20,313 nucleotides of DNA from Candidatus Poribacteria bacterium (lineage in GTDB: Bacteria > Poribacteria > DTPJ01 > WJIO01). Shown here one piece after another: positions 6,812-20,089 of this stretch. Location: the NCBI GenBank assembly GCA_014730235.1, contig WJIO01000358.1, positions 1 through 20,313 on the forward strand. Direction: 5' to 3'. A model generated the notes under the pieces. The model searched no databases. It was not told the origin of the DNA and saw only the letters and a list, made by a program, of their open reading frames with translations. The position numbers and the translations under genes were made by a program. Positions within the stretch are counted from its first letter, which is position 1, and every line of letters begins with the position of its first letter.

Positions 6812-8011
6812 ATGTTATCTTATCAGCAGTATCTTCGGAACAGCACAGTTCCAAAGGAAATAATAGATACTTTCCTTGACGATAATCAACCAACCTGGGC
6901 TAAATACGATCCGGAAGTTGGTTATATCCTAGGCAATTCCATGCCGCGAGATGGAATAGACGGTAGTTCCACCATATCAACATCCCAAAAAAACGGAGCC
7001 AGAAAAGCCCATATGTATGCAGACAGAAAATGCAGGATAAATACATACGGAAACAGTTTTACACAATGCCACCAGGTAAGTGATGGGGAAACATGGCAGG
7101 AATATCTTGCTGGTCATCTTGGTGAACCTGTAAGGAATTTCGGTATGGGAGGATTTGGCGTATATCAGGCTTATCGAAGGATGCTCAAGACAGAGCAGAC
7201 ATGCCATGATGCAGAATATGTAATCCTCTATATTTGGGGTGATGACCACAACCGGAGCGTCATGCGATGCCGTTATGCGGTAACTTATCCCTGGTGGGAT
7301 GATCGGGGTGGCGTTGCTTTTCATGGTAATTTCTGGGCAAATGTAGAGATGGATCTGGATTCAGGTCAATTGGTGGTAAAGGAAAATATCCTTTCTACGC
7401 CGGAATCCCTTTATAATATGACCGATCCCGATTTTATGGTTCAGGCTTTGAATGAAGATCTGATGGTACAGCTTTATGCTACCAGGCAAGTTGATCCATC
7501 AAGTCTTGATATAGAAAGCCTGAATGCGTTGGCTGAAATTCTGGGTGTGTCTAAAATTGATAAAATGGATGAACCCAACTTAAGCAGTTCAATAGAGAAC
7601 ATAAAAAAAGCCTATGGTTTTGCTGCAACAAAATATATAATACAGAAAGCCTGTGATTACTGCAACGGCAAAAATAAAAAACTTATGATCGCTTTATTAT
7701 GCCCGACTGCAACCCGGCAACTACTTAACGGTCAACAGCGATACGAACAGGATATAATTAACTTTATTGATAAAAATGGAATCAGGTATTTTGATATGAA
7801 TCTGGTTCATCTGACGGACTATAAAGATTTTAATCTATCTGTAGAAGATTATATGCAGAGATATTTTATAGGGCATTATAGTCCTGCTGGGAATCATTTC
7901 TTCGCATATTCCATAAAGAATGCGATTGTTGGCTGGCTTGATCCTAAACCTATAACATACCGGGATGATGATCAAAAGATGTTTGATTTCAAAGGTTATC
8001 TTCCTGATTGA
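6812..8011 (+). CDS. SGNH/GDSL-like hydrolase
   Basis: This 399-residue protein has features of the SGNH esterase/deacetylase superfamily. There is a strand ending in Y79-G-N-S82-F (candidate Ser nucleophile block). It is followed by N109-F-G-M-G-G-F-G (oxyanion Gly block) and a strand YVILYIWGDDHNR (136-148). A C-terminal H355-Y-S-P-A-G-N-H362 is typical of the block V His. Such enzymes remove acyl groups from glycans or lipids. There is no signal peptide, so it is probably cytoplasmic. The substrate is unknown. CGGAG about 8 bases upstream supports ATG 6812. It lies 15 bases before the sulfatase-like gene, so the two are probably translated from one message and may remove acetyl-type and sulfate-type groups from the same sugar. 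Confidence 0.65.
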   Translation: MLSYQQYLRNSTVPKEIIDTFLDDNQPTWAKYDPEVGYILGNSMPRDGIDGSSTISTSQKNGARKAHMYADRKCRINTYGNSFTQCHQVSDGETWQEYLAGHLGEPVRNFGMGGFGVYQAYRRMLKTEQTCHDAEYVILYIWGDDHNRSVMRCRYAVTYPWWDDRGGVAFHGNFWANVEMDLDSGQLVVKENILSTPESLYNMTDPDFMVQALNEDLMVQLYATRQVDPSSLDIESLNALAEILGVSKIDKMDEPNLSSSIENIKKAYGFAATKYIIQKACDYCNGKNKKLMIALLCPTATRQLLNGQQRYEQDIINFIDKNGIRYFDMNLVHLTDYKDFNLSVEDYMQRYFIGHYSPAGNHFFAYSIKNAIVGWLDPKPITYRDDDQKMFDFKGYLPD

Positions 8012-8026: not shown

Positions 8027-9415
8027 ATGAAAGTTGTATATATGATGGCTGATACCTTCCGGAGGGATCATCTTGGTGCTTATGGAAATGATTGGATTCA
8101 TACACCAAATCTGGACAAACTGGCATCAGAATCTGCATTGTTTGAAAATGCCTACATAGGTTCTTTTCCTACCGTTCCAAACCGTCGGGATACGCTCCTG
8201 GGGCGCGGGGATATTGGTCTACCCTTTAACCGATGGAAAACTATAGAAAGACAGGAGGTAACACTTCCAGAAAGACTTTCGCAAAAGAAAATAACTTCAA
8301 TGCTTATTACCGATACACAAAATAACGTTACTCGCGGAATCAACATGTATAAAGGCTATACCGCATGGTATTTAAACAGGGGACAGGAAGGTGATCCACA
8401 TTGGTTGGATGCAAACGTTCCTTTAGAATGGCCTGTACCTCATGAGCTTATTCGATACAGGGCGGAAATGTGGCACCAGGTTTTGATAAACCGCGCTCAT
8501 CGTAAGGTAGAAACCGACTGGTTCGCACCGGGAACATATTCAAAGGCCATAGAGTGGCTGGAACACAATTATCAGCGTGAAGATTTTTTCCTCTGGATTG
8601 ACACCTTTGATCCTCATGAACCCTGGGATCCACCTCAATATTATGTGGACATGTATGATCCGGGATATGAAGGGCGCATTTTCGACGCCCCAACTTATGG
8701 CCTGCGAAAGAAAATGGGAATTACCGATGAGGAAATGAAGCATATCCGGGCCTGTTATGCTGGTGAGGTTACAATGGTGGATACATGGATCGGAAGGCTT
8801 TTGAATACTGTAGAAAAGCTGGGAATATGGGATGAAACTATGATTATATTCACCAGCGATCATGGAACTATGTTTGACACACCGGGAGACAACGGTTTAA
8901 TATGCAAACCCAATACCGTTGGCGCAGATGGTATGCTCATGTCAGCAGGAAGACCAATGAAGGAACCTGTGCAGTATTTCCCAATTTTTCAGAATGTAGC
9001 CCGTATCCCATTGATTATACATCTCCCTGGAATGAAAGACGGAAAGCAGGTTAAATCTATAGTGCAGCCCTGGGACATGAATGTCACACTCCTTGATATT
9101 TTTGGTATTGAAAAGCCCGATGAATTAATCGGACAATCCCTGTTGCCGTTGATTAAAAAAGATAAACAATCAGGACGGGAAGTAGCCATCTGTGGAACAA
9201 ATACCCTGGCTCAAGCCATTAACAACAAATGGATTTATACAGTATGGCGGGGACAAAGGAAGCCATCTTTGATAAATCTGGAATCAGATCCCCTGGCAGA
9301 GACCAACATTATCAAAGAAAATACTGAAACAGCAAAATGGCTTCATGGTGAAATTGTAGACTTTATGGGTCAACAGGATATAGATTCTGATTTCATTGAA
9401 TCTTTTACTCATTAA
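8027..9415 (+). CDS. Sulfatase-superfamily hydrolase with Thr at the catalytic position
   Basis: This 462-residue alkaline phosphatase/sulfatase superfamily enzyme (PF00884) is full length. The N-terminal metal strand is MADTFRRDHLGAYG (7-20, metal ligand D9). The catalytic-loop region reads P48-T49-V-P51-N-R53, with the signature end TLLGR (56-60). The C-terminal metal motif is FTSD278-H279-G. FDPHEPW (194-200) gives another conserved His. Arylsulfatases need Cys or Ser at the first position of C/S-x-P-x-R for conversion to formylglycine. Here it is Thr, which is not a known substrate for that modification. Thr nucleophiles occur elsewhere in the superfamily, so a phosphodiesterase or other hydrolase is possible. 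There is no signal peptide. CAAGGAG precedes ATG 8027 by about 8 bases. Confidence 0.85.
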   Translation: MKVVYMMADTFRRDHLGAYGNDWIHTPNLDKLASESALFENAYIGSFPTVPNRRDTLLGRGDIGLPFNRWKTIERQEVTLPERLSQKKITSMLITDTQNNVTRGINMYKGYTAWYLNRGQEGDPHWLDANVPLEWPVPHELIRYRAEMWHQVLINRAHRKVETDWFAPGTYSKAIEWLEHNYQREDFFLWIDTFDPHEPWDPPQYYVDMYDPGYEGRIFDAPTYGLRKKMGITDEEMKHIRACYAGEVTMVDTWIGRLLNTVEKLGIWDETMIIFTSDHGTMFDTPGDNGLICKPNTVGADGMLMSAGRPMKEPVQYFPIFQNVARIPLIIHLPGMKDGKQVKSIVQPWDMNVTLLDIFGIEKPDELIGQSLLPLIKKDKQSGREVAICGTNTLAQAINNKWIYTVWRGQRKPSLINLESDPLAETNIIKENTETAKWLHGEIVDFMGQQDIDSDFIESFTH

Positions 9416-9599: not shown

Positions 9600-11444
9600 T
9601 CACCATTTATTCCCAACCGGTACTCTCCATTCAATATCCCGCAGCCAATCCCAGGATTCACCATCACCTATAGCCGTAAATAATTCACAATCATCACCAT
9701 CACCAACAGCTATAGTCATTTTATGCCATCCACGTTTTAGCTTTAAGTCTTTGCCGGTTTCACCACAGCGATGTATGGCTGGAACCAGGTACGTTCCTTT
9801 GTGATGGTTAATTTCAGTTCCGTCAATCCAGACTTTTACTTCCCTTGGGGCCTGAACTATGTATCTCATGGTCTGATCATGTGGTATGATAAAATCCGCA
9901 GTTAAGGCATGTGGATCTTTTGGAAGTCTCTGGAAATGTCCGGCAACTTCCAGCAATTCTGCATCTTTAACAGTTTTTGGACATTCATCAGGTATTTTAC
10001 TTATGGGCCAACGCAACCAGGGAATAGTATTTATTAAACCTGCACTTACAGTCCACTGCATGTTGTTTAGCTCAAAGCATAGATCAAGTAAATTTCGATA
10101 TACCCGATTTTTGTTCCCCGGTGGGGTTATGGAAAATCTGATATTTTCTGCCTGTCCGGGATCAAGTTTTATGCTATTATAAGAAAGACTGGATATCCAA
10201 CCATCAGGAACTCTTATTCTAAGATGTATATCCATATGATGTTTTGAGGGATTGATAACTTTTACATAGAAACCTGCTGGTTTTTCAGGAGATAAAGCTA
10301 CATTGAGGGGATAGTTTACATATACTATTAACGGTTCAGTTGCTACCAGACTTTCCGTAGGTTCGCTTTTTTCTCCCAGCATAATATGTTTATGACAGCA
10401 ATTTCTTGGGGGTGATATGTTCGTCTGCCAATGGGTTATAGAATCCGCATTACTCAATGTAATATTGGATTTATAATATGCCAGTGTGTGTATGGCTAAA
10501 CCTGCTACCTTTTCGGTAAAATCATCCAGCGTATTAGCGTTGTGCATACCTACTATTCCCGGAGATAGTAGGAGGTCTTTACCTATAGGCTTTAACCATT
10601 TGTTATCAATACCATCAGGATTTAAAATACCCAGCAATGCTCCGAGAGTTGCACCTGTGCAGTCAGTATCTTTTCCGCAGTTTACCGCGGTACATATAGA
10701 CTTTCCAAAATCACCTTCACCTGCTAACCATCCAAGCACTATAAAGGCCAGATTCTGAGCCACATCGGTGAAATTCTGACGACCATGTTCCCTTAGAATA
10801 AGCTTTCTCACTTCCTGCCAATCATGAAGTTCCGACCACCATGCTCTGGTATCTTCAATAGCGCGAGCTACTCGACTGCCGGATGGAATTACATTTTTTC
10901 CCTCATGCAGTAATTTTTCCTGATCATTTTCTATAAAAGCCGCACTTTCAATTGCTGCAAGATACCTGGCGGCATAAACACCTTCCGCTGCATGATCAAC
11001 ACAGGCATCTTCCCGGGCCAGGGTAGCTGCAAGTTCTGGATCTCCAGGAGCAAGGCATGCCCATATTTCTGTCCGTATAGCAGCTCCCATACCAGCAGTA
11101 AAACCATTGTCAAACCAACCACTTATGGGGGGACTTATACCATGATATAAATTCCTGCTGGCAACGCCATATTCATCAGGCCAGAAGTGTATATGTTCTA
11201 ACCATGTAGATGCTAACATATGACGTTCAATAGGTAAACCATGACGCCGGATTGCTTCAAGCCATACAACTTGTAAATCCAAATCATCATTAGGTAGCAT
11301 TTGGTCTGGTATAGGATCATAAAACGTCAGGGAAAGAGGCCCCTCTTTTCCCTCTACTGGTCCACCTAATGTTCCTCCCACAGCTTTACCTAACCAGCAT
11401 CCTAAAACTCTCCTGCGATAATCTGCCAGATCTATTTGATTCAT
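9600..11444 (-). CDS. ADP-ribosylglycohydrolase-family protein with C-terminal beta-sandwich region
   Basis: The protein has 614 residues from ATG 11444. The first ~320 match the ADP-ribosylglycohydrolase fold (PF03747). They include an N-terminal RRRVLGCWLGKAVGGTLGGP helix, the acidic metal motif N52-D-D54 (usually T-D-D) and the second metal motif G-K-D259-T-D261 before GATLGALLG. The family removes ADP-ribose from proteins or small molecules, but many members in glycan-degrading bacteria have unknown substrates. Residues ~350-614 look like two beta-rich domains: an NEW3/CARDB-like segment (NPSKHHMDIHLRIRVPDGW) and a carbohydrate-binding-like end. The reading frame extends upstream to ATG 11525, but that extension is Lys/aromatic-rich and unlike the family. 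Neither start has a good Shine-Dalgarno. The gene stands alone, convergent with the sulfatase-like gene. Confidence 0.8.
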   Translation of the reverse strand: MNQIDLADYRRRVLGCWLGKAVGGTLGGPVEGKEGPLSLTFYDPIPDQMLPNDDLDLQVVWLEAIRRHGLPIERHMLASTWLEHIHFWPDEYGVASRNLYHGISPPISGWFDNGFTAGMGAAIRTEIWACLAPGDPELAATLAREDACVDHAAEGVYAARYLAAIESAAFIENDQEKLLHEGKNVIPSGSRVARAIEDTRAWWSELHDWQEVRKLILREHGRQNFTDVAQNLAFIVLGWLAGEGDFGKSICTAVNCGKDTDCTGATLGALLGILNPDGIDNKWLKPIGKDLLLSPGIVGMHNANTLDDFTEKVAGLAIHTLAYYKSNITLSNADSITHWQTNISPPRNCCHKHIMLGEKSEPTESLVATEPLIVYVNYPLNVALSPEKPAGFYVKVINPSKHHMDIHLRIRVPDGWISSLSYNSIKLDPGQAENIRFSITPPGNKNRVYRNLLDLCFELNNMQWTVSAGLINTIPWLRWPISKIPDECPKTVKDAELLEVAGHFQRLPKDPHALTADFIIPHDQTMRYIVQAPREVKVWIDGTEINHHKGTYLVPAIHRCGETGKDLKLKRGWHKMTIAVGDGDDCELFTAIGDGESWDWLRDIEWRVPVGNKW

Positions 11445-11533
11445 TCCATAAACACCATCTTTCTTTAAAATTACTGTAAATATATAAGAGAGCTTTTTAA
11501 TATACCATATCCATCCCTCCAGCATCCATAAAT

Positions 11534-11562
11534 ATATTACCAGTTTTCATTTTTGTGTTCAA
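11534..11562 (-). promoter_or_regulatory. Possible promoter of the ADP-ribosylglycohydrolase-family gene
   Basis: On the minus strand TTGAAC (11557-11562) and TAATAT (11534-11539) are 17 bases apart, each matching 4 of 6 consensus bases. A transcript start near 11527 would fall just before the upstream ATG at 11525, which favours the internal start at 11444. The evidence is weak. Confidence 0.3.
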
Positions 11563-11628
11563 TATAAAATTAAGTAAAAACATTGTATATAAAATCCTGA
11601 TGTGTTAAAATACGTTATTAATCAGATA

Positions 11629-11657
11629 TTGATTAGTTAATTGGGTTCTGGTAAAAT
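11629..11657 (+). promoter_or_regulatory. Possible promoter of the lipoprotein-lyase-galET operon
   Basis: TTGATT (11629-11634) and TAAAAT (11652-11657) are 17 bases apart and match 4/6 and 5/6 of the sigma-70 consensus. The leader to ATG 11769 would be about 105 bases. A second TATAAT-like box near 11717 lacks a good -35 partner. Confidence 0.4.
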
Positions 11658-11768
11658 ACCTTTGTTAAAACTTTAAAACTTGGGGAATCAAAGAATAGTT
11701 CTGTTTCTTGCAAGTAAATATAATGCATGATAGGTCCGGAGTTACAGTCAAAACATAAGGAAAAATAT

Positions 11769-12215
11769 ATGAAAAGAATTAAGATTTTCTATATTAATAT
11801 TTTATCTTTAATCTTAGCTTTTATTGTTATAGGTTGCGCTGAAGAATCAAGCAGTGGAGTTCTGGAACTGGATGCCGGTGAACCTATGATTCTGGAATCA
11901 GAAACATGTCTGACCGTCTCGAGTTCTAAACCTGTGGGTATAACTGACTCTTTTTTCAGCTTTGATGATCGCATATATATATGGATACACTGGATGAATG
12001 TGGAGGATATGCGGGATGTTGGGGTGGAATGGTTTGAACCAGATGATGAAATACCTGCGTGGAGTGATGTTCAGACTATAGATTCAACCAGTGGTTATGC
12101 TATTACATGGTTCTATATAGAAAAACCTGAAGAAGGTTTTGTTGAAGGCGAATGGTCTGTGGATATATACCTGGATGACGATTTTCAAAGGAGTCATATC
12201 TTTTTTATTAATTAA
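11769..12215 (+). CDS. Small lipoprotein of unknown function
   Basis: The start at 11769 is preferred over an upstream in-frame ATG at 11727. It follows AAGGA by about 7 bases and opens directly with a basic, hydrophobic lipoprotein signal (MKRIKIF then ILSLILAFIVIG). The lipobox I-V-I-G-C gives the lipidated Cys at residue 23. The mature ~125 residues are acidic and rich in Trp/Asp, with alternating strand-like stretches (RIYIWIHWMNV; YAITWFYIEKP; GEWSVDIYLDDDF). This suggests a single beta-sandwich domain on the cell surface or in the periplasm. I do not recognise the family. It is first in a probable operon, 24 bases before the lyase, so a glycan-binding or lyase-partner role is possible but only inferred. 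Confidence 0.75.
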   Translation: MKRIKIFYINILSLILAFIVIGCAEESSSGVLELDAGEPMILESETCLTVSSSKPVGITDSFFSFDDRIYIWIHWMNVEDMRDVGVEWFEPDDEIPAWSDVQTIDSTSGYAITWFYIEKPEEGFVEGEWSVDIYLDDDFQRSHIFFIN

Positions 12216-12239
12216 TCCTTAAAGTGTCTGGAGCTTATT

Positions 12240-14663
12240 ATGTATCAGGAAATTACTTTAGTTATTTTATCTCTCAGTCTAGGAATATATACAGCAAATG
12301 CAGGAGAAGGATTAAGAGTAAATGATGATCCGGCTAAACCCGGTGAATGGGGGATTCGACCTTTTGATAACAGTAAGACTGCCGTAAATCCCCCAGGATT
12401 TATCTGGCGACCCCAGGAAAATGCCGTTTCATATAACTTGCAGTTATCTCGTAAGCGGGATTTCAGCAGCGTGGACTATGAAAAGAACAATTTAAAGCTT
12501 TTTTGTCACTGCCCACCCAAAAAACTTGGTGATGGTGACTGGTACTGGCGTTTTGCTTATACCACAGAAGATGGTCAAAAATCATCCTGGAGTAATATCA
12601 GAAGATTTACCATTCCAGTAAATACACAGGATTTTCCCATGCCTGAAAAAGAAGAACTTTTCGGCAGGATCCCGGATAAACATCCCAGATTATTTCTAAG
12701 ACCTGAAGACTTGCCTAAACTCAGGGATTTAGCCCAGGGGGAATTAAAAGACATATACCAATCTATGGTCAGCCAGTGTGAAAAGATAATGTCAAATCCG
12801 CCATCTACGGAAGAGCCACCGACTTATCCAGAAGGTACCGAACGTTTAAGCGAGGAATGGCGGGAAATATGGTGGGGAAATCGCAGATATACTATAAACG
12901 TGCTTAACAGTGCAGCTACCCTGGCCTTTACCCGACTTCTTGGAGGTAAGGAAGAATATGGATTAATAGCAAAAAAGCTTTTGATGGATGCAGCAGAATG
13001 GGATCCAAAAGGTGCTACTGGTTACAGATATAACGATGAAGCAGGTATGCCGTATAACTACTATTTTTCCCGAACATATACTTTTGTAAATGATTTATTG
13101 ACTGAAGAAGAAAAAGAAAAATGCCGGGAAATTATGAATATCAGGGGCAAAGAAATGTATAATCATCTCTGCCCTAACCATCTGTGGAAACCCTATGGAA
13201 GTCATTCAAATCGGGCATGGCATTTTCTTGGTGAAATAGCTATTGCTTTCTTTGATGAAATACCAGAAACCAGGGATTGGCTGTGGTTTACCATGAACGT
13301 ATTTTACAACGCCTATCCTGTATGGAGCGATGACGACGGTGGCTGGCACGAAGGTCTTGCATACTGGCGCAGTTATATCCGCCGTTTCCTGTGGTGGGCT
13401 GACATTATGCGTTCGGCGATGGATATTGATGCTTATAAGAAACCTTATTTCAGCAAGGTGGGTTATTATCCCATGTATCTACAGCCGCCCGGAGCAAAGA
13501 GGGGCGGATTCGGTGACTTGACTGGACACCTTAAATCAGATGGCAATGTTGATTTAATGAATATATTCGCCGCCCAGGCCCAGAATCCATACTGGCAGTG
13601 GTATGTTAAGGCTCATGACAATTCATCGGTAGATAACAGTTATGCCGGATTTATAAGAGGTGCGTTACCTAAAGTAATGTCAAAACCTCCAGTAGACCTA
13701 CCGGATTCACGACTTTTCAAAGGAACGGGTCTGGCCATGCTTCATACAGATTTAACTGATGCTACAAATGATATATTCATTGAATTTAAAAGCAGTCCTT
13801 TTGGTAGTTACAGTCATGGATATGATTCCCAGAATTCCTTTGTATTATATGCCTATTCAGAACCATTATTAATTCGCAGTGGACGAAGGGATATTTACGG
13901 AAGCGCTCATCATAAAAACTGGATGTGGGAGACGAAATCGGTTAATTCTATACTGGTAAATGGTCAAGGGCAGAAACCCCTTCGGTCGATGGAAGCTCAA
14001 GGGGAAATTATAGATTTTCATACTTCAGAATGTTACAGCTATGTTGTGGGTGAAGCAAAAAAAGCCTATGAAGGTCGGGTAAAGACTTTCACCCGTAGTA
14101 TATTATTCATAAAGCCAGAGGTGATCGTAATATATGATCATCTGGAAACCCCGGAACCCTCCACTTTCCAATGGCTAATGCACTCACCAAATGAAATGGA
14201 AGTTGCTGATCAAAAAAATATAATACTGGAAAACGGTGAAGCAGGATGCAAGGTATCATTTATGCTGCCTGATGGACTGGAAATAAGTCAGACAAACAAA
14301 TTCGATCCCCCACCCCGCCCCAGGGTAAAACTGACTCAATGGCATCTACAGGCCAGCACAGTTGAAAAAAAGGATGGGTGTAATTTTATTACCATAATCC
14401 GACCATATAAAAAAGACATGCCAGTTCCTATGGGCATTGATATGGAAAAACACGATTCAGGATATGTTTGTGATTTACAGCTTATAAGAGGTAAAGTAAA
14501 GGTAATAATAAGAACTGCTGAGAAAGGCAGTATATGCAGTGATGAAATAGAAACTAACGCTCGGGTTACGGCAGTTCGATTTAATAATGATAATAAAGTT
14601 ATGGATTATTTTACCGCAGACGGAGATATATTTGAATGTCCCGGTAAAACTTCCTATAAATAA
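12240..14663 (+). CDS. Exported heparinase II/III-type polysaccharide lyase (DUF4962-like N-terminus)
   Basis: This 807-residue protein begins with a signal peptide (cleavage probably after A21 in ANA). Residues ~22-127 form a beta-sandwich opening (FIWRPQ, YNLQLSRKRDF, WYWRFAY), as in DUF4962 proteins. Residues ~145-480 look like the alpha-toroid domain, with LFLRPEDLPKLR, R278-TYTFVND and K317-PYGSHSNRAWHF. A heparinase II/III domain follows (~495-800), with the diagnostic SHGYDSQNSFVLYAYSEP (525-542). In related lyases (PL12, PL15, PL17, PL21) His and Tyr of these regions cleave uronic-acid-containing chains by beta-elimination. Substrate class (glycosaminoglycan, alginate or other) cannot be set from sequence. 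A CTGGAG site precedes ATG 12240. It lies 24 bases from both its neighbours. Confidence 0.8.
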   Translation: MYQEITLVILSLSLGIYTANAGEGLRVNDDPAKPGEWGIRPFDNSKTAVNPPGFIWRPQENAVSYNLQLSRKRDFSSVDYEKNNLKLFCHCPPKKLGDGDWYWRFAYTTEDGQKSSWSNIRRFTIPVNTQDFPMPEKEELFGRIPDKHPRLFLRPEDLPKLRDLAQGELKDIYQSMVSQCEKIMSNPPSTEEPPTYPEGTERLSEEWREIWWGNRRYTINVLNSAATLAFTRLLGGKEEYGLIAKKLLMDAAEWDPKGATGYRYNDEAGMPYNYYFSRTYTFVNDLLTEEEKEKCREIMNIRGKEMYNHLCPNHLWKPYGSHSNRAWHFLGEIAIAFFDEIPETRDWLWFTMNVFYNAYPVWSDDDGGWHEGLAYWRSYIRRFLWWADIMRSAMDIDAYKKPYFSKVGYYPMYLQPPGAKRGGFGDLTGHLKSDGNVDLMNIFAAQAQNPYWQWYVKAHDNSSVDNSYAGFIRGALPKVMSKPPVDLPDSRLFKGTGLAMLHTDLTDATNDIFIEFKSSPFGSYSHGYDSQNSFVLYAYSEPLLIRSGRRDIYGSAHHKNWMWETKSVNSILVNGQGQKPLRSMEAQGEIIDFHTSECYSYVVGEAKKAYEGRVKTFTRSILFIKPEVIVIYDHLETPEPSTFQWLMHSPNEMEVADQKNIILENGEAGCKVSFMLPDGLEISQTNKFDPPPRPRVKLTQWHLQASTVEKKDGCNFITIIRPYKKDMPVPMGIDMEKHDSGYVCDLQLIRGKVKVIIRTAEKGSICSDEIETNARVTAVRFNNDNKVMDYFTADGDIFECPGKTSYK

Positions 14664-14687
14664 GTTTGCTATGGAGGAAAAGAAATA

Positions 14688-16862
14688 ATGCAAGGTGCTG
14701 TTCTGGTAACAGGTGGTGCGGGATATATAGGCAGTCATACTGTACGAAGGCTTCTGGAAGATAACCGACGTGTAGTGGTGCTGGATAATCTATCTACAGG
14801 TCATAGGGAAGTAATGTCGCTTTTCTCGCGTGTATACGGACCAAAACAATTTTGTTTCGAGGAAGTAAATTTGCTTGATGCTGATAGTATACAGGGAGTG
14901 TTTGAAGATCATGAAATAGTAGGCATTATAGATTTTGCCGCCCGAAGTCTTGTGGCCGAATCCCAGAAAACTCCTCGTTTATATTTTGATAATAACGTTA
15001 TAGCCTTTATGAATTTAATAACAGCCTCTCATGATGTTCCTGTGGTAAAATCCTCCACAGCAGCCACATACGGTGATCCTGATGATGAAAATATACCTCT
15101 GGTTGAGACATATCAGAGATCATGTGTGGATAAAAATATATTTCCCGACAGCCAGTTGATGGAAGCTGCCTATGATTTTGATACTATTATAGGATGGTAT
15201 AACCAGGAAATAGCTGGAAAGAATTCCGGATTTGAACTTACCGAGGAAAATCGGTCTTATCTCCGTATCCCTACAAATGTATACGGCATAACAAAGGTGA
15301 TGGATGAGATTATTCTGGACAGATGCGATGTTGATTGTGGTCGTCATTATATATCTTTACGATATTTCAACGCCGCTGGTGCAGATTCATCCCGCCTGAT
15401 CGGAGAAGACCATAATCCCGAGACCCATCTTATACCAATTGTTTTACAGGTGGTATCCGGTAAGCGGGATAAGATTAAGATATTTGGTAATGAATATGAA
15501 ACCCGGGATGGCACAGCAGTCCGGGATTATATTTCCGTTCAGGATTTAGCTGAAGCCCATGTTTTATGTATGGATCATCTTATTGCAGGCGGTTCCAGCA
15601 AAACCTATAATCTTGGTTCAGGTCTAGGTTACAGCGTCAAGGAGATCATAGAAACAGCGAGAAAAGTCACTGGCCATCCTATACCTGCAGAAGATGATGA
15701 CCCCCGCAGCGGTGACCCCGCAACCCTTATAGCCAATTCAAATCTCATTAAGGAGGAAATGGGTTGGGAGGTAAAAGCATCTCTTGAGGAAATCATAGAA
15801 TCCGCATGGCACTGGCACAGGCTTAACCCCGAAGGCTATCAGGTTAAGCAGGAGGAACGTTTCAATCCCTTCTGGAATCGCTGGGTAAACATCGCCGCCC
15901 ACAGATCAAGCCGTCCATGGAGCGGAGAAACTCAGAGTATGGATTCTGGAGAAACAAAGAAATATGATGAAGATTGTTATCTCTGCCCCAAAAACACCAG
16001 GGTTAAAGGTGATGTAAACCCTGATTACAGCAGCGTATGGACATTTGTCAATGATTTTTCAACCCTGGTAATGGACGCTTATGAAACCAGTGAAGAACAC
16101 GGCCCCTATAAAGCCCATACATCCAAAGGCATTTGTGAGGTTATAGTATACAGTCGAGATCATTCCCAGATGATGTCAACCATGTATGTTGATGAAATTG
16201 CCAACGTTGTGGATGAATGGGCAAAAATTTACCAGCGATTGGGCGAGATAGAAGAGATAAAATATCCTCTGATATTTGAAAATCGTGGTAATATAATGGG
16301 CAATTCTCAACCCCATCCTCATGGACAGGTATATGCTTATGGGTCAATACCTGACCTGATTTTAAAACCCCAGTTGGAAGTAATCGAAGATTATAAAGAC
16401 AAAAATGATGGAAATTGTTTTGTCTGTGATGCCAATAAATTCGAAATAGAGGATTCCAGGAGAATTCTGGCAAAGAATGATAGCATGGTTGCGTATGTTC
16501 CCTATGCTGCCCAATTTCCTTATGATGTTATGATCGTTCCAATAACTCATGCAAGTAGTTTACTTGAACTGGATAAAAAACAGCGTATGGATTTAGCCGG
16601 GATTTTAAAGAGAGTGCTTAACGGTCTTGATGAATTGTTTAAGTCCCCGTATCACTATTCCCTGGCTCTTATTCAGACACCTACTGATGATATTGATTAT
16701 GATTTCCACATGCAGTTACATATAACCTCTTTGCTGAGAGGCCCCGGACTCAGAAAGCATGTAGTAGGTGCGGACATTTTCGGCAGACTTATTAATCCCT
16801 CTGATCCCAATCATACAGCTGAAGAGATCAGACATGCTATGCGGCAACACTATCGCAGTTAA
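14688..16862 (+). CDS. Fused UDP-glucose 4-epimerase / galactose-1-phosphate uridylyltransferase
   Basis: One continuous 724-residue frame carries two Leloir enzymes. Residues 1 to ~380 are GalE: NAD-binding GGAGYIGSH (9-17), the S-S-T124 strand before ATYG, and catalytic Y199-G-I-T-K203. RYFNAAGA (225-232) and DGTAVRDYI (274-282) are also present. Residues ~390-724 are GalT: RFNPFWNRWVNIAAHRSSRP aligns with the E. coli GalT start. C430/C433 and H492 match its zinc ligands, and H543-P-H545-G-Q contains the uridylylated His 545. Together they turn galactose-1-P and UDP-glucose into glucose-1-P and UDP-galactose, and recycle the latter. GalE has ~50 extra residues (~143-193) before the catalytic Tyr. 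GGAGG lies about 10 bases upstream of ATG 14688. No frameshift or internal start signal is apparent. Confidence 0.92.
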   Translation: MQGAVLVTGGAGYIGSHTVRRLLEDNRRVVVLDNLSTGHREVMSLFSRVYGPKQFCFEEVNLLDADSIQGVFEDHEIVGIIDFAARSLVAESQKTPRLYFDNNVIAFMNLITASHDVPVVKSSTAATYGDPDDENIPLVETYQRSCVDKNIFPDSQLMEAAYDFDTIIGWYNQEIAGKNSGFELTEENRSYLRIPTNVYGITKVMDEIILDRCDVDCGRHYISLRYFNAAGADSSRLIGEDHNPETHLIPIVLQVVSGKRDKIKIFGNEYETRDGTAVRDYISVQDLAEAHVLCMDHLIAGGSSKTYNLGSGLGYSVKEIIETARKVTGHPIPAEDDDPRSGDPATLIANSNLIKEEMGWEVKASLEEIIESAWHWHRLNPEGYQVKQEERFNPFWNRWVNIAAHRSSRPWSGETQSMDSGETKKYDEDCYLCPKNTRVKGDVNPDYSSVWTFVNDFSTLVMDAYETSEEHGPYKAHTSKGICEVIVYSRDHSQMMSTMYVDEIANVVDEWAKIYQRLGEIEEIKYPLIFENRGNIMGNSQPHPHGQVYAYGSIPDLILKPQLEVIEDYKDKNDGNCFVCDANKFEIEDSRRILAKNDSMVAYVPYAAQFPYDVMIVPITHASSLLELDKKQRMDLAGILKRVLNGLDELFKSPYHYSLALIQTPTDDIDYDFHMQLHITSLLRGPGLRKHVVGADIFGRLINPSDPNHTAEEIRHAMRQHYRS

Positions 16863-16874
16863 ATTTTATTCAAT

Positions 16875-17492
16875 ATGAAAGACAAAAAACACTGGTATGA
16901 CGGATGGTTTTATTCAAGGGTAATCGATCCCTGGGGTGCATGGGTTCGAGAATGTGTATATGAATTTATAACGGTGGGTAGTTCTGTAATTGATATAGGC
17001 TGCGGGACTGGTAAACTTGCATTTAGGCTGTCTGAAAAATGCGATTTTGTTATGGGGATCGAAGCTTCAAAACGCATGGTAAATTTTGCCAAACGGTATA
17101 AACTTTCTGGAAATTACGGTAATGTAGATTTTATCCATCTGGATGCGCTAAAATTATCAGAAATTATTGAGGAACACTTTGATTATGCTGTAGTTGCCCT
17201 GATGCTTCATGAAGTGTCAGAAGATAAGAGAATAAATATATTGAAAGAAGTTATGAAAATTTCGGACAGGATAATTATTGCGGATCTTAATTCCCCACAA
17301 CCTTCAAGCCTTAGAGGTATGCAAAACGTTTTCCCCGAATTAGGTGGGGGAATCAAACATTTTTTAAATTCTATAAATTTCATAAAAAATCATGGTATAG
17401 AAGCATTAATAAATCAAACTGGACTTGTGGTTTTAGATCAACATATTGATAATTCAGGCAAATATAAAGTAATATTGGCAGAATCGATATAA
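16875..17492 (+). CDS. Class I SAM-dependent methyltransferase
   Basis: This 205-residue cytoplasmic protein has the Rossmann methyltransferase core. Motif I is V38-I-D-I-G-C-G-T-G46, an acidic residue ends strand 2 (GIEASKRMV), FIHLDALKL is motif II, and DYAVVALMLHEV is the post-II strand. It resembles the UbiE/Methyltransf_11-25 group, whose substrates range from quinones to small metabolites, so the substrate is unknown. It starts 12 bases after the galE-galT stop without a good Shine-Dalgarno, suggesting translation coupled to the upstream gene. Its sequence looks more AT-rich and lysine-rich than its neighbours, so it may be a later addition to the operon. Its link to glycan use is unclear. 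Confidence 0.85.
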   Translation: MKDKKHWYDGWFYSRVIDPWGAWVRECVYEFITVGSSVIDIGCGTGKLAFRLSEKCDFVMGIEASKRMVNFAKRYKLSGNYGNVDFIHLDALKLSEIIEEHFDYAVVALMLHEVSEDKRINILKEVMKISDRIIIADLNSPQPSSLRGMQNVFPELGGGIKHFLNSINFIKNHGIEALINQTGLVVLDQHIDNSGKYKVILAESI

Positions 17493-17531
17493 ACTAACCT
17501 TTTTAATTGATTCAAAGAAAGGAGCTTAAAG

Positions 17532-18602
17532 GTGGCATCAAAATTAGCTTTTAAGAAGCATGTTATTGACGAAGGTATGAATGAAACATGCGCAGTTGTA
17601 GATGTAGACGGTGATGGCGTTCTGGATATAGTTGGGGGAACTCACTGGTACAAAGGTCCTGACTGGAAAAAATATCCCATGCGGGAAATCCCGTTTGAAA
17701 ATAATTATGTGGATAATTTCGCCGATTATGTCCTGGATGTAAACACAGATGGTAAACCGGACATAATTTCAGGAAGCTGGTTCCGAAAGCAGATCGCATG
17801 GTATGAAAATCCTGGAGAAGCCGGTAAGATATGGACTGAGCATGTAATTGATGTTCCCGGCAATGTGGAGACCCTTTGTATGGTTGATCTTGACGGTGAC
17901 GGCATACCCGATATATTGCCAAATGTCATGGGGGTTGATAATATATCATGGTATAAATCCATCCCCGGTAAAAATCCTGAGTTTAAAAGAGTTATAATTG
18001 GTCATGAGGGAGTTGGTCATGGTCTGGGGTATGGCGACATCAACGGTGACAGCAGAATTGATATAATAACTCCGAATGGATGGTATGAAGGGCCGAAAGA
18101 TCCTGTCAATGATGAGTGGAAATGGCATCCTGAATTCAACCTGGAATCAACCGGTGTTCCTGTTCTTACTTATGATATAACCGGAAACGGACTTATGGAC
18201 ATTATTTGGGGTGCAGGCCATAATTACGGTTTATACTGGGAAGAGCAGAAAATTGACAGCGCTGGCAACCGCACATGGGTTCGTCATGAAATTGATTCCG
18301 ACTGGTCACAGAGCCACGCCTTGGCCCTGGCTGATCTGGATAAAGACGGTGTTATGGAACTAATCACCGGCAAACGCCTTTTTGCCCATAATGGCAATGA
18401 CCCCGGCGGTAAAGACCCATCATGTCTGTACTGGTATAAGCTGAATCATGATGACTTTACATGGAAGCGAAATGTGATTGATGAAGGAACAAAAGTCGGC
18501 GCAGGTATGCAAATATGCGTCGCAGATGTGTTTAATCGCGGTAAGCTGGATATTGTTGCCCCCGGCAAGGGTGGATTGTATCTATTTGAAAATATTGGTT
18601 GA
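17532..18602 (+). CDS. FG-GAP/VCBS seven-repeat beta-propeller protein
   Basis: The gene starts with GTG at 17532, supported by AAAGGAG about 8 bases upstream. The 356 residues hold seven regularly spaced calcium-loop motifs of the D-x-(D/N)-x-D-G-x-x-D type: 24-32, 69-77, 119-127, 169-177, 215-223, 268-276 and 332-340. The last four are more degenerate. Seven repeats of about 50 residues fit one closed seven-bladed propeller like an integrin alpha or FG-GAP domain. Repeated WY-x-x-P segments follow most blades. No signal peptide or membrane helix is visible, which is odd for a calcium-type propeller. It either works in the cytoplasm or leaves by another route. It is the last gene of the operon, and a palindrome at 18616-18655 follows. 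Confidence 0.8.
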   Translation: MASKLAFKKHVIDEGMNETCAVVDVDGDGVLDIVGGTHWYKGPDWKKYPMREIPFENNYVDNFADYVLDVNTDGKPDIISGSWFRKQIAWYENPGEAGKIWTEHVIDVPGNVETLCMVDLDGDGIPDILPNVMGVDNISWYKSIPGKNPEFKRVIIGHEGVGHGLGYGDINGDSRIDIITPNGWYEGPKDPVNDEWKWHPEFNLESTGVPVLTYDITGNGLMDIIWGAGHNYGLYWEEQKIDSAGNRTWVRHEIDSDWSQSHALALADLDKDGVMELITGKRLFAHNGNDPGGKDPSCLYWYKLNHDDFTWKRNVIDEGTKVGAGMQICVADVFNRGKLDIVAPGKGGLYLFENIG

Positions 18603-18615
18603 TACCATTCATGCG

Positions 18616-18655
18616 ATACAACATGGGTGCATGTATACATGCACCCATGTTGTAT
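18616..18655. repeat. 40-bp perfect palindrome between convergent genes
   Basis: This is a perfect loop-less inverted repeat, half-site atacaacatgggtgcatgta, centred at 18635/18636. It starts 14 bases after the FG-GAP gene stop and ends 15 bases before the end of the convergent sulfatase gene. In RNA it would form a long stem in either direction. It lacks a clear T-run, so it may be a stabilising or dispersed repeat rather than a plain terminator. Confidence 0.75.
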
Positions 18656-18670
18656 TATAAAATACTTAAA

Positions 18671-20089
18671 TTACACAAAGGCCTTGCGACCTTTATTTTT
18701 TGGCCCTGCCAGATCGATCTGACCTTTCCCTGTAACAGCTAAGCGGCTGCCGTCCAGCATTGGTTCTGAATACTGACAGAACCATTCATCAATCTGGCCT
18801 CGCATTTTCACAATGATTTCATCATAAGCTTTATCTTCCACCAGGTTATTTATTTCATCCGGGTCATTTTCCAGATTATACAACTCATGAGGGCCGTAAG
18901 GATACCTGTGAATATACTTCCATTCGTGATTTCGGATCATCCTTACCGGGCCGTATTCGTCAAAGACTACCACATTTTCATTTCCCTTATCCTCTTTGCC
19001 TTTGAGGACATCGGCAAAGCTGCGACCGGGAAGCTTTTCTCCTTCCGGGTTTTCAAAACCCAGGTAGTCAAGAACAGTAGGCATGAAATCGTATTGGCTG
19101 TAAAGGCCACAGTTTACAATATCCTGGGGAATTCTGCCTGGACAGGAGATAAGGAGAGGAACTTTTACTGAAGTGTCATACATATTCATTGGGAAAGTGC
19201 CGTTGCCTTTGCCGCATATACCGTGATGTCCCATATTCATGCCGTTATCGGCCAGGAAAACTATAATAGTGTTATCCCGGATACCCATATCTTCCAGTTT
19301 CTGGATAACCCGACCTATATTGGTATCCATTGCCGTCACTGCTGAGAAATATCCCTGTAACGCTTCTCTGCGTTTTTCAGGACTTGGATTCCAACCTCTC
19401 CAGGGATGCGGCGGTTCAACTGGTATGGAATCAAAAGGACAATCAGCATACAGGTCAAAAACATGAGGATGATTATCCCTGCCCCAGGGTGCATGGGGTG
19501 CTGTATAGTGCAAACTCAGGCAAAATGGCTTTTCATTTGAAGCATTGTCATCCAAAAAGTCAATGGCTTTATCTGTAAAATAGTCTGTTACATACTGGGT
19601 TTTATTCACAAGCTCAGGGGAATTTTCAAATACAAAGTAGTTTACGTAGCTGTCACCGCCCAGGGAATGGGCATACCAGTATGAATGACTCTTTTGCGGT
19701 TTTGCACTGTGACCCACATGCCATTTACCCGAAAGTCCACATGTATAACCGTTATCCGCCAGAATATCGGTAAATCCGGTCATGCCTTGCAGGTATTCAA
19801 TATGATGGTCTGCTCCGCACCAAGTCACGCCGTCCTCTACGTCTATATTACCGCTTTTGATCCAGTCGTGAACTCCATGCTGAGATGGTATCCTGCCGGT
19901 TAAAAACGAAGCCCTGGCAGGAGAGCAGACCGGGGAAGTACAGAAAAAGTTGTGAAAACGTATTCCTTCTCCCGCAATTTTATCCAGGTTAGGGGTTTGG
20001 ATTTCACTATTTCCAGCGCATCCCATAGCCCATGCGCCTTGATCGTCTGACATGATAATAAGAAAATTAGGTTTTTTATCCTGCTTCAT
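18671..20089 (-). CDS. Formylglycine-type sulfatase
   Basis: This 472-residue sulfatase of the S1 family type (PF00884) hydrolyses a sulfate ester, here probably on a sugar. All core motifs are present: metal pair S14-D15-D16, catalytic C55-S-P-A-R59 followed by ASFLTGR, GKWHVG, APHAPW, and FLADNGMNMGHHG. C55 must be converted to formylglycine by a maturation enzyme that is not encoded in this window. There is no signal peptide, so it probably acts in the cytoplasm on imported oligosaccharides. The C-terminal LYNLENDPDEINNL is typical of the family. CGGAG eight bases upstream supports ATG 20089. It is transcribed alone, towards the operon, from a strong promoter at 20137-20165. Confidence 0.93.
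   Translation of the reverse strand: MKQDKKPNFLIIMSDDQGAWAMGCAGNSEIQTPNLDKIAGEGIRFHNFFCTSPVCSPARASFLTGRIPSQHGVHDWIKSGNIDVEDGVTWCGADHHIEYLQGMTGFTDILADNGYTCGLSGKWHVGHSAKPQKSHSYWYAHSLGGDSYVNYFVFENSPELVNKTQYVTDYFTDKAIDFLDDNASNEKPFCLSLHYTAPHAPWGRDNHPHVFDLYADCPFDSIPVEPPHPWRGWNPSPEKRREALQGYFSAVTAMDTNIGRVIQKLEDMGIRDNTIIVFLADNGMNMGHHGICGKGNGTFPMNMYDTSVKVPLLISCPGRIPQDIVNCGLYSQYDFMPTVLDYLGFENPEGEKLPGRSFADVLKGKEDKGNENVVVFDEYGPVRMIRNHEWKYIHRYPYGPHELYNLENDPDEINNLVEDKAYDEIIVKMRGQIDEWFCQYSEPMLDGSRLAVTGKGQIDLAGPKNKGRKAFV

Follow-up and report, generated by a model that had tools for sequence, protein, structure and literature searches.

An apparently undescribed, conserved GalE-GalT fusion protein, predicted to be a bifunctional Leloir enzyme, in three bacterial phyla

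Known galactose enzymes and the fused gene

The Leloir pathway is a textbook route of galactose metabolism, in which the epimerase GalE and the uridylyltransferase GalT are normally separate proteins and defects in GalT and GalE lead to human galactosemia. Among known natural fusions, Gal10, in which GalE is joined to a mutarotase, comes nearest to such a protein. Near the galE/galT junction of E. coli, a site of Rho-dependent termination has been described (PMC9239205). A fusion of GalE to a uridylyltransferase was not found in searches covering 5.39 million open-access papers, and the only GalE fusions of a related sort encountered there were engineered GalE:galactosyltransferase proteins. 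The prospect raised by an earlier note on this DNA, that many fusions of GalE and GalT might already be described, found no support in that literature. The GalE-GalT architecture reported here is clearly conserved and apparently undescribed.

We examined a 20,313-nucleotide contig (WJIO01000358.1, below the window) of a Candidatus Poribacteria bacterium (assembly GCA_014730235.1). Its plus strand carries a galE-galT fusion gene of 724 codons (14688-16862) in one open frame from ATG to TAA, with a Shine-Dalgarno-like GGAGG (14673-14677) ten bases 5' of the ATG. The order of Pfam matches along the protein, all above their gathering scores, was Epimerase/GDP_Man_Dehyd, then GalP_UDP_transf (PF01087; residues 387-555, 15846-16352) and GalP_UDP_tr_C (PF02744; residues 566-723, 16383-16856). 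The GalE domain spans residues 1-385 (14688-15842) and is supported by NCBIfam, 18 fused sequences, an AlphaFold2 model and structure matches; GalT takes up residues 386-724. At the domain junction (residues 381-395, 15828-15872), the GalE end, NPEGY, is followed after approximately four residues by EERFNPFW of GalT, so that the join is almost free of linker, and its length was constant in all 18 aligned fused sequences. The protein scored 349.2 bits against the galE model TIGR01179 (cut-off 262.3; other fused members, 305-351 bits) and 240.0 bits against the galT_1 model TIGR00209 (cut-off 102.1). In divergent fused homologues, too, both halves scored above the curated cut-offs. The earlier note had claimed two complete domains in a single uninterrupted frame with eight key residues in place (T124, Y199 and K203 of GalE; C430, C433, H492, H543 and H545 of GalT), and on each of these points it proved correct. 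A search of the window genome located GalT in the fused gene alone, which is also the sole GalE above the galE cut-off. Judged by sequence, the fusion is genuine and conserved.

Distribution, origin and selection

The fusion was found in 20 genomes from three little-studied bacterial phyla, with identities of 53-66%. It was carried by 3 of 84 Poribacteria genomes, 16 of 64 Latescibacterota genomes and one of six genomes from a third phylum, that of CSMAG_1171. A pattern-based alignment scan of approximately 85,000 species genomes returned seven fused loci labelled as Latescibacterota, Poribacteria, Gemmatimonadota or only "bacterium", and the Gemmatimonadota-labelled genome (G085) also belongs to the Latescibacterota phylum set. 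A first scan of genome contigs using a single protein as query had given no match. Among plasmid records, galE and galT were separate at the three inspected places (H1, H2 and H8); no phage record covered 80% of the query, and a search of viral contigs for GalT relatives found none. It was also noted that one Latescibacterota genome (G084, contig C657) possessed a stand-alone GalT in addition to its fused copy.

A sequencing or assembly error joining two adjacent genes was the other outcome that, according to the earlier note, could undo the claim. Errors of a comparable sort do occur in this kind of data: an apparent 707-aa GalK-GalT fusion (L104; G138:C134, 298-2421, minus strand) was rejected as the product of a frameshift in the last part of galK, and in a relative of this locus (L103) galK and galT are intact and separate. 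For the GalE-GalT gene, however, such an error is almost out of the question. It is countered by an independent full-length homologue in another Poribacteria genome (G061; 62% identical, with 763 codons in a single open frame), by the occurrence in 20 genomes of three phyla, by two fused loci on single-chromosome assemblies (OX638329 and OY282377), by the fixed junction length and by purifying selection. A chance open reading frame was rejected on account of the same full-length homologue and spread of genomes. The fused gene of a further Poribacteria genome (G055; 61% identity) is interrupted solely by the contig end at residue 120/121.

We then considered the origin of the fusion with two trees, one built on GalE (40 rows) and the other on GalT (38 rows). 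In each tree, all fused sequences lay on one side of one branch with a support of 100/100. Because fused GalE and fused GalT each form one clade, a single origin of the fusion is most likely. Across six close pairs, dN was well below dS in nearly every region, the short insert and junction stretches included, and the selection on the fused gene is purifying. At four unfused Latescibacterota loci (L102, L107, L108 and L109), the genes were adjacent in the order galE-galT-galK; at L102, the base that follows the galE stop is the first of the galT ATG, and both genes share the same frame. By analogy with such loci, the fusion most likely originated when the stop codon separating galE from a directly abutting galT was lost. 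The unfused loci would serve only as analogues of the precursor, since the fused clade does not have its closest relatives among them. A helical insert in the GalE half would have been gained on the same stem as the fusion.

The two halves of the protein

The GalE half contains the NAD motif GGAGYIG (Rossmann type GGxGYIG) together with T124, Y199, K203, N228 and R279. T124, Y199 and K203 (the S/T...YxxxK set) and R279 were identical in 18/18 fused sequences, where present. The gatekeeper position is occupied by L347, and in the alignment the B. anthracis-type GalE (2c20) likewise has leucine at this position. A model of the domain (AlphaFold2, 57 sequences) reached a pLDDT of 96.7 and a pTM of 0.94. 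The nearest solved structures were all GalE (Z 44-48, rmsd 1.0-1.8 A), with the best match at Z 48.4 and 1.0 A over 324 residues. On these grounds, the GalE half is predicted to act as an epimerase on UDP-Gal/UDP-Glc.

Approximately 50-60 residues of the GalE model were not matched by solved GalE structures. Between T124 and Y199, in sequence just before the catalytic tyrosine, lies an insert (residues 141-194; 15108-15269) some 50 residues long, which was confidently folded in the model as three helices (142-148, 164-176 and 186-192). The spacing from T to Y was 68-75 in 17/17 distinct fused sequences as compared to 24-27 in 127 unfused ones, and the insert was absent from all 127 distinct unfused GalE-like proteins drawn from bacteria and viral contigs. 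Neither this insert nor the loss of a second metal site from GalT, described below, had been mentioned in the earlier note.

Another reading is that the fusion evolved for channelling, in which the insert near the GalE catalytic tyrosine would dock GalT and the UDP-hexose would be handed over without release. The presence of the insert in every distinct fused sequence scored and in none of the 127 unfused proteins, its confident fold and the very short junction of fixed length are all consistent with such an arrangement. However, the full-length AlphaFold2 model (8 sequences; mean pLDDT 50, pTM 0.46) is too poor to indicate how the domains are arranged, and the insert may contribute to nothing more than folding or oligomerisation. 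We consider channelling unlikely. A slightly less probable form of the idea is a self-contained machine converting Gal-1-P to Glc-1-P, with the insert as the GalT interface and the UDP-hexose passed between the sites like a bound cofactor.

The GalT half was compared with E. coli GalT, and equivalent residues were read from the alignment of the two. The essential zinc site is formed by C430, C433, H492 and H543 (C52, C55, H115 and H164 of E. coli), and the nucleophile H545 lies within an HPHGQ motif. All 18 fused sequences were identical at R406, C430, C433, H492, N532, S540, H543, H545 and Q547, and in the C-terminal half K690, D696 and N703 were invariant among fused sequences. Uridylyltransferase activity on Gal-1-P is accordingly the predicted role by sequence, in a half that passes the galT_1 cut-off but misses the narrower PRK11720 model (290 bits vs a cut-off of 448).

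The second (iron) site of E. coli GalT is mostly lost from the fused form, with three of its four ligands replaced (E182 by P561 and H281 by I662, while H298 falls in a deletion); H678, at the fourth ligand position, was kept in 17/18 fused sequences. Geeganage and Frey (1999, as listed in PMC5081055) describe this site as non-essential. As the site is non-essential and no defining feature of the family, its loss leaves the assignment to GalT standing. Near the sugar, A695 takes the place of E. coli Y316 and D696 that of E317, and the fused GalT is strongly diverged, with a stem length of 1.58 changes per column in the GalT tree. Because of this divergence, the mostly missing second-site ligands and the residues A695 and D696, the hexose specificity of the fused GalT could be shifted.

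Gene neighbourhood, proposed function and known systems

A galactokinase gene directly follows the fusion in 17/17 other fused loci that have downstream sequence, and the one galactokinase that was scored (L059) passed the NF003705 and TIGR00131 cut-offs. This constant neighbour points to a role in the Leloir pathway. In the window, there is no galK after the fusion gene; a methyltransferase gene stands there and the galactokinase lies elsewhere in the genome. Its gene is divided between two contig ends (C428 and C184 of G000), probably by an assembly break. The methyltransferase (16875-17492) is a small class I protein weakly resembling the corrinoid-associated CpaM; it starts 12 bases 3' of the fusion stop and may share a transcript with the fusion. 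When 11500-18700 was scanned for promoters and terminators, matches were no more numerous than in shuffled sequence.

The earlier note had taken the galactose to come from a polymer degraded by a neighbouring lyase, and this suggestion was not supported. The upstream protein carries DUF4962 and Hepar_II_III_C, its heparin-lyase match reached 40.8 bits vs a cut-off of 600, and wherever the flanking ORFs of other fused loci were read, none next to the fusion was a lyase gene. The neighbours in those loci were ribosomal-protein genes, a sulfatase and unrelated genes. Two sulfatase genes occur in the window (8027-9415 and, on the minus strand, 18671-20089), and a sulfatase-like gene also adjoins the fused gene in two other Poribacteria (L050 of G061 and L029 of G055). 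Directly before the first window sulfatase gene, a 399-aa protein without a Pfam match is encoded (6812-8011). A further gene (9600-11525, minus strand) encodes an ADP-ribosylglycohydrolase domain, and the long stretch C-terminal to this domain has no Pfam match.

Could the substrate be a relative of galactose, such as another hexose-1-phosphate? The sugar-side GalT residues A695, D696 and N703 differ from those of E. coli and would allow it. The galactokinase gene next to the fusion at 17/17 other loci, with the scored one above curated cut-offs, argues against it, as do the equivalog match of the GalE half and its gatekeeper leucine of the B. anthracis type. We regard a different substrate as improbable.

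Taken as a whole, the sequence features make GalE-GalT very probably a genuine and conserved bifunctional Leloir enzyme. From them we infer both activities, the net reaction, the loss of a stop codon as the origin and whatever benefit fusing may bring. The chemistry of GalT is established and includes a uridylyl-His intermediate and the HPH motif (PMC5081055). The GalT half would transfer UMP from UDP-glucose to galactose-1-phosphate by way of uridylyl-His545, yielding glucose-1-phosphate and UDP-galactose, and the GalE half would return UDP-galactose to UDP-glucose with NAD+ and Y199, K203 and T124. The net outcome on one polypeptide would be the conversion of Gal-1-P to Glc-1-P, with the UDP-hexose as a recycled carrier and a separate galactokinase as feeder. 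The fusion joins known enzymes of a known pathway and involves no new biochemistry.

Within the bifunctional reading, the advantage may lie in expression. The fusion would eliminate the galE/galT cistron junction and fix the ratio of the two activities, and a 1:1 ratio, which the earlier note had anticipated, is a direct consequence of the single polypeptide. That a fixed ratio and freedom from galE/galT polarity account for the fusion, with the two sites not directly coupled, is a possibility to which we give slightly less than an even chance. Termination at the E. coli galE-galT junction is Rho-dependent and is lowered when the galE stop is replaced (PMC9239205), which favours this account; however, it leaves the fusion-specific insert unexplained. 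It is nevertheless likelier than a coupling of the two sites.

As a natural fusion, apparently of single origin and bearing an insert before the epimerase tyrosine, the protein offers a ready test object for direct transfer of UDP-galactose. It may also allow UDP-galactose to be recycled with a single gene, and as a marker trait it spans Latescibacterota and some Poribacteria.

Three known systems stand close to this protein. Like the fusion described here, Saccharomyces Gal10 (1z45) joins an N-terminal GalE to another Leloir enzyme, and the GalE domain model aligned to it with Z 44.4 and an rmsd of 1.5. However, a Gal10-type mutarotase domain is absent after GalE in our protein, whose C-terminal half is GalT by Pfam and whose GalE carries the extra insert, and the two fusions are unrelated. 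An engineered GalE:alpha1,3-GalT (PMC2818619) likewise joins the epimerase to an enzyme sharing UDP-galactose, but it is artificial and its "GalT" is a glycosyltransferase rather than a uridylyltransferase. The E. coli-type galE-galT-galK operon encodes the same enzymes in the same order, with galK following the fusion in the relatives of the window gene; there, however, they are separate proteins, comprising a GalE without the insert and a GalT with its second metal site.
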